A stretch of DNA of 64,000 bases, taken from NCBI GenBank assembly GCA_002690925.1, contig NZGD01000167.1, positions 1 to 64,000 of the forward strand. The letters are read 5' to 3'. A program made the translations under genes and the position numbers. A model generated the notes under the pieces. That model ran no database searches. It saw only the letters and a list, made by a program, of their open reading frames with translations, and was not told where the DNA came from. Below are positions 24,427 to 31,067 of this stretch, one piece after another; positions within the stretch are counted from its first letter, which is position 1; each line of letters begins with the position of its first letter. This stretch comes from Rhodopirellula sp. GTDB taxonomy: Bacteria; Planctomycetota; Planctomycetia; Pirellulales; Pirellulaceae.

Positions 24427-25830
24427 TCAACGCTTCTTTTTATTCCCAAAAGACCACAAGTCTGACGGGGTATATGCATCACGCATGTAGCCATCAATGC
24501 GTTTCACAATATCAGGATGATCCGCAGCAACATTATCGACTTCACCCAGGTCGCGGGTAAGGTTATAGAGTTCGAGGGTAGAGTCAGGGTTCTTCCCAAC
24601 ATTGTTTCGAACGCCCTTCCATTGGCCCCACCGGACTGCCTGTTTCCCACCGCGTTCATAAAAAGCCCAGTACAGATAGTCGTGACGCTGTTGCTTTCCT
24701 TCGTTTCCCAGCATGGCAGGCAAGTAACTGATCCCATCGATAGCCTTGGGCGCGCCGACCCCCGCGATCTCCATACAAGTCGGCATCACATCCCACATTG
24801 CTACCGGTATGTTGCAAACTGTTCCTGCCTTTATTTTCCCTGGCCAACGCGCGAGAAACGGAACACGGATACCACCCTCATACAGATCCCGTTTATGGCC
24901 CCGCAATGGACCGTTGGAATCAAAAAATTTCGGGTCATGACCACCCTCCATGTGTGGCCCATTGTCACTCGTAAAAGAAACAATGGTATTGTCATCAATC
25001 CCAAGCTCTTTGAGCAGATCAAGCAATTGGCCCACATGCCGATCCATTCGCGTCATCATCCCTGCAAATGCAGCAATCGGATTCACCACCAATGGCCCTT
25101 GATACTTCCCAATTTTGCTATCGAACTGTGGCCACAATTCTCGGAAGGGCGCGTGATCCTCTTCAGGTACGTGCATCGCGGCATGGGGAATGGTGAAGGG
25201 CACATAAGCGAAAAACGATTTATCTTGATTGTTTCTTACAAATTTGAGCAACTCATCGTTGATCAGGTCAGCCGAGTAAGTGTCTTCTTTCAGGAGAACC
25301 TTCTTATCGTTGTGCCACAAGTGTGTCGGGTAGAACGTATGGGCCTGCCGTTGGCAGTTGTATCCAAAGAACTCGTCAAAATGGCGTGATGGATCGCTCG
25401 CAGACCCGGGAGCTCCGAGCCCCCACTTCCCAAACATCCCCGTCGTGTAACCCGCATCCTTGAGTCGTCTTGGAAGAGTGACAATCTCCGCGGGCATCGG
25501 CGCCTGCCCCTCGGGTTGAACCTCACGATTTCCTCGTACGAATGCGTGACCCGTGTGCAACCCAGTCATCAAAACACATCGTGTGGGTGCACACACGGTT
25601 GATCCCGCGTAGTAGTCTGTAAACGTCACACCCTCGGAAGCCAACCGGTCAATGTTCGGCGTTTTGAACTTCTTCTGTCCAAAACATGACAGGTCACCAT
25701 ACCCAAGGTCATCGGCCATGATGTAAATAATGTTGGGAGCTCTCTCAGCTGCAAACAGCGGTGACGCCAGTGCGCACAACAGCGCCGTGATCATTAGTTT
25801 CTGCATTAGTTTCTGACTACGCTTTATCAA
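24427..25830 (-). CDS. Exported arylsulfatase
   Basis: 467 residues. Signal peptide through about residue 28 (P-L-F-A-A), then N-I-I-Y-I-M-A-D-D-L-G-Y-G-D. The formylglycine motif is C-A-P-T-R at Cys80, and D-N-G-P-H-M-E-G-G-H-D carries further metal ligands. Y-L-Y-W-A-F-Y-E-R-G-G-K-Q-A-V-R near the C-terminus is typical of the arylsulfatase A / N-sulfoglucosamine-type family in planctomycetes. A 12-bp direct duplication (CAGAAACTAATG) at the 5' end gives three in-frame ATG codons (residues 1, 9 and 13), so the exact start is uncertain. Confidence 0.93.
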   Translation of the reverse strand: MIKRSQKLMQKLMITALLCALASPLFAAERAPNIIYIMADDLGYGDLSCFGQKKFKTPNIDRLASEGVTFTDYYAGSTVCAPTRCVLMTGLHTGHAFVRGNREVQPEGQAPMPAEIVTLPRRLKDAGYTTGMFGKWGLGAPGSASDPSRHFDEFFGYNCQRQAHTFYPTHLWHNDKKVLLKEDTYSADLINDELLKFVRNNQDKSFFAYVPFTIPHAAMHVPEEDHAPFRELWPQFDSKIGKYQGPLVVNPIAAFAGMMTRMDRHVGQLLDLLKELGIDDNTIVSFTSDNGPHMEGGHDPKFFDSNGPLRGHKRDLYEGGIRVPFLARWPGKIKAGTVCNIPVAMWDVMPTCMEIAGVGAPKAIDGISYLPAMLGNEGKQQRHDYLYWAFYERGGKQAVRWGQWKGVRNNVGKNPDSTLELYNLTRDLGEVDNVAADHPDIVKRIDGYMRDAYTPSDLWSFGNKKKR

Positions 25831-25946
25831 GGATCGTTGTAGTTATTCGGGACTGATTTACCCATTGCATCATACAGTGGATACGCTTGGCTGCTCATTC
25901 AGGTGGGATTGAGGTGCCAAATTTCCGTTTAGGATGGCTCACACGG

Positions 25947-28900
25947 CTACCTCTGACGTTGTGTGGAAGCAAACTCCTGCACTTCTTCAAGAATCACACG
26001 AAAATCCTCTAAACGTGTCTTCATTCGTGGCAGTTTCGCAAGGTTTTTCTTCTCTTCAGGGTCGAGGCTCAAGTCATAAAGTTCCTCACCGTCTGGCCAC
26101 TGCCCATAACGCCAACGTTGATTCCGTAGCGCAAAGCCGAGCTTGGGGCCGCGTGTAACAACGCTATACGCATACTTCTTTTTTCCAAGTCGGTCTGGGT
26201 GCCCCAACAATGGACGCAGAGAATTCCCCTGCAGATGTTCCGGTGTTTCGAGCCCCGTTAAATGGGTAAGCGTGGGAAAAACATCGATCAGTTCGACCAT
26301 TGCCTGGGAGTGTGCACCCTCACTTGTCAATCCTGGCGCTCGAATCATAAATGGCACCTTGGCACCAATATCAAACAAGGTCACCTTGCCCCAAAGAAAG
26401 TGATCCCCCAAATGGTAACCATGATCAGAAGTCAGAATGATGGTTGTGTCCTCCCAGTGTCCACTCTCTTTGACAGCATCGAGCACAATCTGGATTTGAG
26501 CATCGATAAAACTAATGCAAGCATGGTAGGCCTGCATGTACTCGCGACGTAGTCGATCGTCCTCAACCCCAAGTTGAAAACCGAAAGCCTCATACCGCTT
26601 TGACTGGGCGAGACCTGGTAGCGTCTTCCAGAGTCCGGGCAAGTCGGGCGTATACCGAATCGACTCGAGTGGATAGAGGTCAAAATATTTCCCCGGCGCC
26701 AGAAACGGCACGTGCGGTTTCTGAATGCCGCAGGCAATGAAGAACGGCTTTTCCCCATGGCTCTTTTCCTTCAACCACTTAGCCACCTGCCTAACGTTTT
26801 TTCCATCCTTGTGTTGCGCATCAACGAGGCCACTTTCACCATAACCAGGCGGTGTCTGGGCATCCAAAGAGGCGGACACCTCCTTCTTCAAGGCTTTCCA
26901 CTTACGCCGATTGGGTCCCTCTTCTATCGAGCCATACACTGACTCAAATTCAATCCGAGCCGTTTTCACGACCTCCAATTCGTCGTTCTCAAACCGAAGG
27001 TATTTATCCCACGCCTTCTCACCATGCTCATGACGGGGTGAGTGAAAAACTTTTCCAACGCTCCCTGTCCAAAACCCATTCTGACGAAAAAACTGCGGCA
27101 TTGAGACGGTTCCGGGACGTTCATTACGAATGTCATCGGTATTATTCAAAACGCCTGTCGATTGCGGATACAGACCGCTAAGCATCGATGCCCGAGACGG
27201 TCCACAGACAGGATACTGACAGAATGCGCGGTCAAATGTCATCGCCTGCGACGCAAACGCATCCATGGCCGGGGTAACGATAGGGGTATACCCGGACGGT
27301 GTGACATGAGTGTTCAGGTCGTCACAGACGATCAGTAGCACATTCTTAGTCAGGTTACGTGCGGCATTCTCGACAACCCCGGTTGGTTTTTCCTTCGTGG
27401 TTGTTTCGCTCGTCTTAGGATTCGCCTGACTATAAGGCAAATGCTTTGGAGGTGGTGTGTAGTTTCCTTCACCGGTCTGCCAATGATATGTCTCACCTTG
27501 AATTACAAGATCCTTGCGCGGATTCATCGATGGCTCGGGCAACGCAAAGTCCTGCGGTGCACTTTTCTTCATTGTCGATATCAGCTCTGCATACCGCGTA
27601 TCGCCTGCCAAGTTATTCCACTCGTTTGGATCGGCCTGAACGTTGTAAAGCTCGTCTCCATCATCCCCATAGCAGATGTAACGCCAATCGCGATTGATGA
27701 TGGCGTACTCACCACGATTCATGTGAGGAAGAAAAACGTTTCGGTCAACCGCAGAGCCAGGATTCATCAACGTTGAGGCAAGTGACGTCCCCTCGAGCGT
27801 CTGCCTGGGGGGACTGAGGCCACACATCTCGACAAACGTCGGATACATGTCGACCAGACTGGCTGACACATCTGTTTTTTCTCCCTTTGCGATACCGGGG
27901 CCAGCCCAGATAAAGGGCACATTGGAGGTGCGTTCCCACAACGTGTGCTTTCCCCAGTCGCCTTTTTCTCCATGGTGATAACCATGGTCACTCCACAAGA
28001 CCACAATGGTATTCTTCGCGTGCGGACTTTTATCGAGTGCATCCAACACCCTGCCCATCATGGCGTCTGCGTAACTAATGCACGCTAAATAACCATGAAT
28101 CGCGTCGTCGACCGCATCCAGTTTTTCAAGCTTCTGATGAATACGTGACCGCGCGGTTTTCATCTTTTTAATTTTCGGGGGCAGATCCTCCAGATCATCT
28201 GCGTGGTACTGGGGCAACGGAATCTCAGCGGGATCATACAGATCGAAATATTTCTGAGGGCAATAGTTAGGAAAGTGGGGTGCATAAATCCCTACACCGA
28301 GAAAGAATGGTTGATCATGTTCCTGATTGAGTTGTTCAACAGCCCAGTCCACTCGTTGTGAGTCAGCCATCTCATCTTCTCTATTGTTGGGTATTGCTCC
28401 CCACTCGAGAAACAGACCGCCGGTAATCTCTTCACCCCGGTTATAAACGCTGTTCGGGAAAGGCTGAGGAAACGGCGTACCTAGCCCCCATGAATCCAAA
28501 GCCCAACCGTTCTGTCTCTGTTTCTGGGTACGCAGAAAGAACTTATCCCAGCCACGGACATCGATCGCTCCCACCGGATGGTGAAACAATTTCCCTGCAC
28601 CGAGCGTTTTGTAACCAGCCTTTGAGAAACTGACTTGAAGGGGTTCAATCTCAGGTTTGGTCTTGAAATAGTTTGCCGTTCGATAACACCCTGTTGTTGA
28701 CGCGAATTGCCCAGTAAAGATGGCTGCCCTGCTGGGGGCGCAAAACACTCCCGCGGTATGAGCATTGGTAAAGCAGACTCCCCGAGCCGCAAGCCGATCA
28801 AAATTCGGCGTGAGCGCTTTGGTTTTCGCGTCATGACATCCTATCCAATCATTCATGTCATCGACCGCAAGAAACAGCACGTTCGCCCTAGGCGTTATCT

Positions 28901-28982
28901 CTGGCTGTTTCGCCGCCGCGGACGACGAGAAGAACTTCATTACCACAAGACAAAACAAGACGAAACAATCGAATCTCAGCAT
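25947..28982 (-). CDS. Tandem double sulfatase, iduronate-2-sulfatase-like
   Basis: 1011 residues holding two complete sulfatase domains in one frame. Signal peptide to about residue 24. Domain 1 (about 30-530) has [12 protein letters not shown] and the formylglycine motif C-A-P-S-R at Cys81. A linker rich in T, E, K and P follows near 535-565. Domain 2 (about 570-1000) has [10 protein letters not shown] and C-G-P-S-R at Cys593. Both contain S-D-H-G-Y-H-x-G-[ED] metal-ligand blocks and Y-A-P-H-F or Q-K-P-H-V-P-F segments as in iduronate-2-sulfatases. Planctomycete sulfatases of this subfamily are normally about 480-520 residues, so this is a fusion with both active sites intact by motif. The pair may act on two sulfates of one polysaccharide. 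Confidence 0.93.
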
Positions 28983-30059
28983 GGCGTACCTTCGCTACTT
29001 TGACGCACAATTTCCAGAAAGTTACGCATCACATCAAAGCATGTGGATGATCACTTCCAAACGACTCATTCTAAACCACGATTTCCTAGCCATAATCAAA
29101 GCAGAGACAAGCATTTGATGGGCAGCCACGGGCGACGCCACGCTTAGAAATGCCACCATCCGCTTCGGCGTAATACCGAAAATGCTTGATTCACCTGCTT
29201 AACCACGGCTGACCCTATTCGGGCACCTCAATGAAACGAATTCAAACAAATTGTCAAGTTTCGGGGCATTTCCAGGCAACCTGCATTGGTCCTCTAACCG
29301 AAATTCACAAGAATGATTCCGTCCTAGTGTACCGGGCTCCATTCCTGCCCAACACGACACTTGACAAAGAATCGGCGGCTTTCCGGGCGGAATCCGCTAG
29401 CTACCAAGCTGTGAGCGAGCAACGAATCCGCAGCAACGGAAACTTCTTAGTGCCCCAAAGTCCCCCAGACACAAACGATCAGCCCCTTGCCATCGTTAAC
29501 ACACGCACAGTGTTCTGCCTAAGCAACGTGAATACTCGCACGCATCACTTTTGTTTTTCATACAGTGGCGGTCACTTGCGTTGCCTACATCAATCACACC
29601 CCGGTGACAGACCCAACAAGTTTGCTTCATTAACAGAAAGCGACGCGATTATGCAGCAGTCACATTCGTGTTCCAAACTGGAACGGACGGCCCCGCGCTG
29701 ATGGCATCGACAATGTGAAATCTGTTTACGGACAATGAGATTTTTTCGCACCAACGGCTCCCAGTCTTGCTTGCAGAAAATCGACATTGGGACCGCCAAG
29801 CAACTGTCAGTTCGCAACTCCGTGGCTGGCGACATTTACCTGAAAACTCTCATACACTCTCTCTTCGTGCGGAGGATCATTGCGCCAAACATGGATCAAA
29901 CGAATGCGCACAGCCTTCGCCTTCGTGCTGCAAAGACAGTGACTCGGAAAACTTTGAGCTCTTGAACATGCAGGGAGGTCGCAACGGACCACGCGAAATG
30001 CGGATTCTTGCATCGTATCGAGACATCGTGCGGCGTGTACTACCTTTCAATCTGTAACG
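28983..30059. other. Gene-poor stretch, about 1.1 kb
   Basis: Several plus-strand frames (the longest 29231-29701, 156 codons) show no signal, motif or plausible composition and are rich in His, Cys and Ser as expected for chance frames. No RNA gene or repeat was recognised. It probably includes the double-sulfatase promoter. Confidence 0.4.
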
Positions 30060-30101
30060 AAAAAACGCCCGCCGGGTCTCCCCAACAGGCGTTTATTTTT
30101 T
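30060..30101 (-). terminator. Intrinsic terminator after the HMA selenoprotein gene
   Basis: Arms AAACGCC/GGCGTTT (30063-30069 and 30088-30094) with an inner GGG/CCC pairing, flanked by T-runs on both strands. On the minus strand it follows the TAG of the HMA gene by about 30 bp and ends in six T. It could work in both directions. Confidence 0.75.
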
Positions 30102-30128
30102 CATAGTGTGAAGGCTATTCCAAGTTGT

Positions 30129-30491
30129 CTACTGAATCGTGTAGTCAGCCAAGTGACTGTTGGTTTCAGCGTACTTCTTCAACTCTGCCTTGTAGTCCAC
30201 ACTGGGATCAGTGAGCTCAAACGTGCAGTTTCGACCCGCGATGTCTGTCGTGATGTTGACAACACCGGGGATTTTGGTCAGATCGCCTCGGACCGAGGCG
30301 GCACAACCACCTCAGTGCATGTTTGGCACTTTGAGGCTAACAAGCGTGGCGATATCGGAATTGTCCGCCGCTGTCTCCGCAACCGCGGAAACCTCGCTTT
30401 CAACCGTTGGTGATGCAACCGGAGTCGTCGACCCCGTGCATCCCACCAAGGCCAGTAACGCGACTTGCAAAAGCACTGCGTTTCTTTTCAT
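30129..30491 (-). CDS. HMA-domain lipoprotein with in-frame TGA, predicted selenoprotein
   Basis: 120 residues counting the TGA at codon 60 (30312-30314) as selenocysteine. ATG 30491 follows GGAG at 8 nt. The N-terminus is a lipoprotein signal with lipobox L-V-G-C at Cys18, then an Ala/Glu/Thr-rich linker (19-48). A heavy-metal-associated domain follows: S-L-K-V-P-N-M-H-U-G-G-C, A-A-S-V-R-G-D-L, I-P-G-V-V-N-I. The normal HMA metal motif is M-x-C-x-x-C; here the first Cys is TGA and the second is Cys63. The reading frame, HMA pattern and codon use continue unbroken for 60 codons after the TGA to a TAG followed by a terminator. A GC-rich hairpin sits at SECIS distance. It should be an envelope metal-binding (Cu or Hg type) or redox protein. 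A sequencing error (TGC or TGT read as TGA) is the main alternative. Confidence 0.75.
30284..30311 (-). promoter_or_regulatory. Putative bacterial SECIS hairpin
   Basis: Directly after the TGA on the minus strand. The stem CGCCTCG (30300-30294) pairs perfectly with CGAGGCG (30290-30284) around a loop that begins with G. The apical loop starts 18 nt after the TGA. Bacterial SECIS elements lie inside the coding region, within roughly 16-37 nt of the UGA, and have a G early in the apical loop, so the geometry fits. Recognition by SelB is inferred. Confidence 0.6.
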
Positions 30492-31067
30492 GAGCTCTGC
30501 TCCAGAATTTGGTAATACATAACAACTTAAAGGACATTGGAATCTGCCCCCTTAGTATCGGCAAGAGTCAAATTCGCCTTGAATACCGATTTTTCGCCCA
30601 ACACAAGCGAAAATTGTCACCAGCGGCAGCAATCAGCAATAACGTGTCCAAACACCAAAAAATGAGCTTATCACGCGATATACAGGACACCAGCCGCAGC
30701 CAATCTCCCACAATCGCCGACCCTCAACGTAAGTCATGCCTTCCAATCCCCCCCCAAATCCTCGAGCAACCCACAGTCATCAACGTGCGGGATTCAATCG
30801 CGAACATCGCGTTTTCCCCGTAATCCCGGCTTTTGACAGCTAAAATACCACTTTGGTGAACCCGAAGTCTTCATAAATGATTGGCTGCTGAGGTTGGATC
30901 TCAAACTCAATCCTTCTGCTTCGGTGCGGCACCAGTTGGAGAACTGGAATTGCTCCATGAATGCTCACCTCGTCGAGTCCACCCGCGTTCTTCCCAACGA
31001 GTTAGAATTCGTGGTGTTCTCGGCTGCGCCGGAAATTAATCCATCCAAACAATCCGGACACAAACTC
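30492..31067. other. Divergent intergenic region
   Basis: About 570 bp between the divergent HMA and zinc-ribbon/TPR genes, taking the later start of the latter. The plus-strand frame 30509-30823 has no features and is taken as chance. Promoters for both genes should be here, but I could not pick -35/-10 boxes with confidence. Confidence 0.4.

Follow-up and report, generated by a model that had tools for sequence, protein, structure and literature searches.

A planctomycete lipoprotein gene predicted to place selenocysteine at the first metal-ligand position of an HMA domain

Mercury-transport proteins that contain selenocysteine (Sec; U in sequence motifs) appear in the tables of a Global Ocean Sampling (GOS) metagenome study, with MerP and mercuric-transport entries among them (PMC2398784), and a cation-transporting E1-E2 ATPase with a UxxC motif is tabulated in PMC13188914. 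Since those tables record Sec in MerP, in mercuric transport and in a UxxC cation ATPase, the kind is already known. Most known selenoproteins, by the account given in PMC4807772, are redox enzymes. Here we describe a gene in a 64,000-nucleotide stretch of Rhodopirellula sp. (assembly GCA_002690925.1, contig NZGD01000167.1, positions 1 to 64,000; hereafter the window) that is quite probably a true selenoprotein gene, its product an exported, lipid-anchored binder of soft metals through a Sec/Cys pair. Its principal features are listed below.

30129..30491, minus strand: gene of the predicted Sec-HMA lipoprotein, 120 codons if TGA is decoded as Sec, followed by the stop codon TAG at 30131-30129
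30438..30449, minus strand: lipobox L-V-G-C with predicted lipidated Cys18
30189..30335, minus strand: HMA domain, residues 53-101; PF00403, 44.5 bits against a cut-off of 24.8
30312..30314, minus strand: TGA codon, putative Sec60, at the first metal-ligand position of M-H-U-G-G-C, placed by translation and homologues
30303..30305, minus strand: Cys63, second ligand position, invariant in alignment A1
30284..30300, minus strand: hairpin resembling a selenocysteine insertion sequence (SECIS), 7 pairs with apical GUC, 12-28 nt past the TGA, placed by comparative pairing
30225..30227, minus strand: Cys89, the third Cys, where strand 3 begins

When TGA is taken as U, 30491-30129 translates into 120 residues with a single TGA, at codon 60; the protein begins MKRNAVLLQVALLALVGC. 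The lipobox is followed by a linker and then by the HMA domain, which reads V-S-L-K-V-P-N-M-H-U-G-G-C-A-A-S-V-R-G-D-L. A first-pass annotation made from the letters alone, which named no strand, had proposed just such a frame, with a lipoprotein signal, a linker, an HMA domain with TGA at the first ligand codon, and 60 further codons to TAG; the translation, the PF00403 match and the homologues bear it out, on the minus strand. The domain lies over the PF00403 gathering cut-off (36.0 bits in a genome-wide scan) and carries the M-x-U-x-x-C loop, which by sequence makes it a member of the HMA family. The signal peptide with its lipobox likewise marks the product as a predicted lipoprotein: L-V-G-C was identified by eye, and G17 and C18 are invariant in 27/27 rows of A1, the row starts of which were picked by hand, while a strict regular expression finds a lipobox-like site in 26/41 rows. 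Because ordinary gene callers end at TGA, genes of this kind probably appear in public annotation cut short or not at all.

The TGA is conserved as a coding codon. The taxonomic family was sampled with 149 genomes, of which 52 gave a match at E <= 0.001, with 68 matches altogether. In the 30 family loci listed, one per genome, the ligand codon is TGA in 27 and Cys in 3 (L027, L034, L035), so that the alignment with Cys homologues that the first-pass annotation had called for does find Cys in place of TGA. A further 19 regions with weaker matches comprise 12 with Sec at the motif, five Cys HMA proteins (some of them ATPases), one non-HMA protein and L063, a distant, degenerate Sec copy in which the second Cys is lost and a TAG falls within the matched stretch; 16 weak family matches, none of which contains stops, were left out of the Sec/Cys counts. 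In a phylum sample 33/392 genomes matched at E <= 1e-8 and yielded 29 new loci (7 Sec and 22 Cys), and in a class sample 32/297 genomes matched at E <= 1e-10 and added 9 Sec loci, the family, phylum and class samples overlapping. The recurrence of TGA at one codon is well past what chance would give, and because the same TGA stands in many genomes, the single-contig G055 included, a base-call error is untenable. Against the same-genus locus L010, the proportions of synonymous (pS) and nonsynonymous (pN) differences in the codons after the TGA are 0.56/0.13, and beyond the hairpin 0.72/0.15; by this comparison the codons past the TGA are under purifying selection.

Exchange between Sec and Cys is also seen at close range. 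L188 (TGA) and L171 (TGT), of one genus, agree in 47/50 residues from the motif on, with U/C among the three differences, and in 48/50 when U is scored as C. The Cys copy L171 retains a hairpin, AAGUGC-GGUCU-GCACUU, which fits the expectation of a recent loss of Sec. Genome G716 has one copy of each kind; its Sec and Cys forms are 44% identical when U is scored as C, and the Cys form makes 3/7 hairpin pairs. A tree of 60 HMA domains implies 7 Sec/Cys changes by parsimony, 3 of them forced by supported branches, in a topology that is built on few columns and largely unresolved; before it was built we removed three U-G-Q-U rows of another protein as well as two chance matches to the motif, one in L016 and one in L037. 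L037 itself is a shortened copy that has a second TGA, and it was kept in alignment A3. The in-frame TGA is thus, as judged from sequence, both conserved and exchanged with Cys, as expected of a bacterial selenoprotein.

Just after the TGA the messenger RNA is predicted to form a SECIS-like hairpin with a G in its apical loop, at a spacing of 18 nt between TGA and loop G, which lies in the usual distance window. Starting at the TGA, 37 UxxC Sec rows, which derive from 34 loci, align with no gaps, and columns 15-21 then pair with columns 25-31. Of the cells, 82.6% hold standard pairs, against 71.9 +/- 1.2 in shuffled alignments and 31-44% when the partners are slid by 1-3 columns. Covariation is 0.317 vs 0.158 in shuffles (reached in 0 of 500), and both-sided changes occur in 5/7 pairs. 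The rows form a mean of 5.78 of the 7 pairs, compared with 3.79 +/- 0.21 after synonymous-codon resampling (maximum 4.32 in 300 trials), and at least 5 of 7 pairs are formed by 28/37. Compensation is evident in stems such as GCC UCG GUC CGA GGC, GCG UCG GUC CGA CGC and GCG UUG GUC CAA CGC, and the protein shifts from S-V-R-G to S-V-R-R and L-V-Q-R together with the pairing. The 37 rows offer a well-compensated SECIS-like set in which pairing accompanies amino acid change. In the ten Cys rows only 21.4% of hairpin cells are paired and the hairpin is not seen, while seven of nine held-out Sec loci form 5-7 pairs, the other two (L210, L211) 2-3. A shifted hairpin of the type CAGUGC-GGUCU-GCACUG, which resembles the SECIS loop of E. 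coli fdhF, is found in L031, L038 and L052, with a similar one in L166 and L188.

The first-pass annotation had reasoned that a genome without selA, selB and tRNA-Sec would tell against Sec; selA, selB, a selD-like gene and tRNA-Sec are all present in this one (G000). The tRNA-Sec, on contig C276, scores 70.3 bits against a cut-off of 47 and is called by ARAGORN as tRNA-SeC with anticodon TCA. On contig C155 selB (301.4 bits, cut-off 242.25), selA (507.9 bits, cut-off 267.9) and selD (252.9 bits, cut-off 125) are adjacent, in overlapping frames, the last as part of a fusion:

L064:6218-8371: SelD-like domain behind a pyridine-nucleotide oxidoreductase domain, overlapping selA

The selB, selA and selD-like genes all end in TGA, and TGA is therefore a stop elsewhere in the genome. 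Judged by these models the genome has the machinery for Sec, with a caveat on selD taken up below. Across the family sample selB lies over cut-off in 77/149 genomes, distributed as 33/35 Sec-HMA genomes vs 44/114 others (Fisher p 1.2e-9, to be read as a guide because the genomes are related; Sec-HMA membership was assigned by hand). Four genomes have a Cys form as best match at E <= 1e-7, and one of them has selB. Within the phylum set, 7/7 Sec genomes and 2/5 of the Cys genomes tested have selB over cut-off. Given the TGA/Cys exchange, the compensated hairpin, the Sec machinery with its selB co-occurrence and the purifying selection, Sec is very probably inserted at the first HMA ligand position, as the first-pass annotation had supposed, and of all the claims made here insertion at codon 60 is the one that these comparisons make closest to certain.

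Several observations weigh against this reading of the locus, in part or in whole. For the hairpin, further pair types are not above shuffles (105 of 500), and the mean folding energy of -14.3 is little below that of synonymous resamples (-13.4 +/- 0.5); because the energy test is weak, the argument rests on pairing and covariation. Only 2-4 pairs form in 9/37 rows (L028, L031, L032, four of L038, L051, L052), most of which, we propose, may use the shifted hairpin. Counts are also uneven in UxxC Sec loci of the phylum set that the collecting pattern of A3 missed and that are in neither A3 nor the tree in their own right (L166 3 pairs, L167 6, L179 5, L185 1). For the machinery, the tRNA-Sec model is over cut-off in 5/14 control genomes, so its specificity is imperfect; the best NCBIfam model for the SelD-like fusion is TIGR04369, 'fusion_not_SelD' (457 bits, below its cut-off of 700); the Sec-HMA genomes G024 and G095 (78% and 84% complete) have no selB over cut-off; and the bin is 7.84% contaminated, with the sel genes on other contigs, yet its relatives G092 and G055 have both genes. 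For the metal role, no mer or cop genes adjoin the gene, none of the seven neighbouring window proteins scanned being mer; no gene family recurs next to it across 19 loci, the one exception being synteny with the nearest, same-genus relative; and no MerT match was found in G000. The third Cys and the multi-Sec arrays of some relatives would suit redox chemistry too.

Fold and motif nevertheless suggest that the lipoprotein binds metal. An AlphaFold2 model from an 18-row alignment has a predicted local distance difference test score (pLDDT) of 84-96 in ten-residue blocks from residue 51 (chain mean 74.5) and the order strand-helix-strand-strand-helix, with a helix at 61-72 and a strand at 88-93. 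Part of that alignment comes from a contig scan whose pattern had Cys codons, which meant that Cys relatives alone could be returned; these were mostly proteobacterial (80 kept of at least 120). The top fold match of the model in the PDB is oxidised MerP (1osd, E 2.0e-4), and by sequence the protein matches HMA domains of Cu-ATPases and MerP. M58, position 60 and C63 are invariant in A1. A Cys stands 20-34 residues after U in 33/41 rows, a count that includes three nested frames of L038; Cys89, at the start of strand 3, which in the HMA topology lies at the metal end, may be a third ligand. As a mechanism, SelB with Sec-tRNA would decode UGA at codon 60 with the aid of the downstream hairpin, as the comparative pairing suggests. 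The product would be exported and, to judge by its lipobox, lipid-anchored, and its MerP/CopZ-like HMA domain would have its two metal-ligand positions occupied by Sec60 and Cys63. Outside the cytoplasm the selenolate-thiolate pair, perhaps with Cys89, could then bind soft, thiophilic ions, for example Hg(II), Cu(I), Ag(I) or Cd(II), and the protein may act as a trap or hand-off protein with no operon partner. Soft-metal binding is the main role that we favour, with somewhat less assurance than the reading as a whole.

A selenoprotein working in redox chemistry is the strongest alternative, although we consider it unlikely. At the cell surface the U-x-x-C pair would form a selenosulfide and serve to reduce oxidised metals, disulfides or peroxides, the HMA fold being no more than a scaffold. 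In redox UxxC motifs Sec stands just before a helix, and in the model Sec60 does directly precede helix 61-72; the third Cys is common (33/41 rows), and no metal operon adjoins the gene. Against this stand the HMA fold itself with MerP as best match, the invariance in A1 of the Met before the ligand loop together with both ligand positions (M58, C60, C63), and the tandem HMA domains of L038, which with their Cys-rich stretch suit metal storage. Reading of the TGA as Cys, Trp or another standard residue, through a suppressor tRNA or a genome-wide change of code, is far less probable: the TGA does align with Cys, and Cys readthrough would yield the same protein, but TGA ends the selB, selA and selD-like genes, tRNA-Sec with anticodon TCA is present, and the hairpin and the selB association point to Sec, on which grounds we rejected it. 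Least credible of all, and already refuted by the comparative data, is that the TGA arose by sequencing error or is a genuine stop codon in a gene that has decayed: for all the fragmentation of the bin assembly (314 contigs) and the example of distant L063 with its TAG and missing second Cys, the TGA is common to 27/30 of the family loci listed, selection is purifying past it and the hairpin is compensated.

Soft-metal binding through Sec remains the preferred reading of the window gene, and its relatives take several other architectures. UxxxU lipoproteins are encoded at L045-L048 and UxxxC forms at L054 and L055. L038:901-2250 has four tandem HMA domains, each with M-T-U-G-G-C, and a Cys-rich stretch, CCASKKACCKAC, as a predicted four-Sec lipoprotein. 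A Sec-HMA domain stands behind a YceI-like domain in L050 and L057 (by Pfam) and in L053 (by resemblance to L050), and L031 is an LTXXQ-like fusion, below cut-off. MerT-HMA fusions with four in-frame TGA each occur at L215:2330-3046, L216:6857-7570, L217:2458-3159 (minus strand) and L218:6443-7177, the TGA lying in D-C-U and S-S-U-C of the MerT part and in M-T-U-H-T-U of the HMA part; they are found in the 4/149 genomes, of two genera, in which UxxxU lipoproteins were seen, on other contigs, and the L216 fusion reaches the cut-off of neither NF033556 nor NF045683. In the MerT-HMA fusion at L222:1973-2677 there are two in-frame TGA and Sec is placed differently, in D-C-U and, within the HMA site, in M-T-C-P-P-U. 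Near the match in L168, L185 and L187 there is a separate HMA-like frame with G-M-D-U-G-Q-U-A-T-G (UxxU), in the case of L168 in a genome, G383 (86% complete), for which no selB over cut-off was found. G000 itself has two other HMA domains over cut-off, both in one 875-residue frame.

Two further features flank the gene.

30500..30503, minus strand: likely ribosome-binding site GGAG, 8 nt ahead of the ATG
30063..30094, minus strand: intrinsic-terminator-like hairpin of 14 pairs, 3' of the gene, from a hairpin scan

The terminator that the first-pass annotation placed after the TAG has a counterpart in this 14-pair hairpin (30094-30063), although the scan gives 2 sites vs 1.1 in shuffles and is weak evidence alone. 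An Rfam search of 29900-30700 returned one weak, irrelevant match only, and the best shared upstream 10-mer occurs in just 2/17 loci. Near the gene in the 19 loci there are sulfatases in 7, at scattered distances, and protein kinases in 4. Beside the gene, at 24427-28982, the window encodes two sulfatase-domain proteins of 1011 and 467 amino acids on the same strand, with similar ones on the same side in the nearest relative.

A widespread exported lipoprotein with Sec at a metal-ligand position would make Sec as a cellular metal ligand directly testable. Tentatively, and a little short of expecting it to hold in full, we propose a family of surface 'selenometallo-traps', in which encoded selenium would be a structural soft-metal ligand and not a catalytic one, in forms from the single U-x-x-C to four-Sec tandem and YceI-linked proteins tuned to mercury-class ions, and in which a portion of the protein sequence, A-S-V-R-G, would be dictated by the RNA hairpin.

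What appears new is the family of lipoproteins and how widely it is spread: no Sec-HMA lipoprotein family, four-Sec tandem or YceI-fused relative was found in NCBIfam or in the titles and abstract openings of open-licence literature, in part among the best 12-15 of 72-448 papers, and an earlier listing is possible. The terms 'heavy metal' and 'HMA' are absent from the main text of PMC4807772, on planctomycete selenoproteins, a term search of PMC5029168 found nothing, and the main text of PMC2398784 does not use the terms lipoprotein or planctomycete. The 'unusual' soft-metal or redox centre of the first-pass annotation was partly right, Sec having been listed in the tables of PMC2398784 and PMC13188914 for MerP, mercuric transport and a UxxC cation ATPase. 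That ATPase is like the present protein in having UxxC in metal transport, but is a large membrane ATPase and not a stand-alone lipoprotein. NCBIfam models NF041115, for a UxxU metal-binding (seleno)protein, and NF045683, for a MerT/CopZ fusion-like selenoprotein, by name have Sec at HMA-type sites; the gene scores 18.1 against 95 bits and 21.2 against 375 bits, and neither is named as a lipoprotein. The GOS entries share with it, as tabulated, Sec in mercury-transport-like proteins, MerP included. With MerP (TIGR02052; PDB 1osd, 1afi), the top fold match, it has in common the HMA fold, export and the M-x-C-x-x-C site, and all 27 A1 members match TIGR02052 at E <= 0.001, although at 29.6 bits the gene falls short of the equivalog cut-off of 92.55. 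No MerT partner or mer neighbours were found for it, and from MerP it differs in its putative Sec for the first Cys, its predicted lipid anchor and its third Cys.
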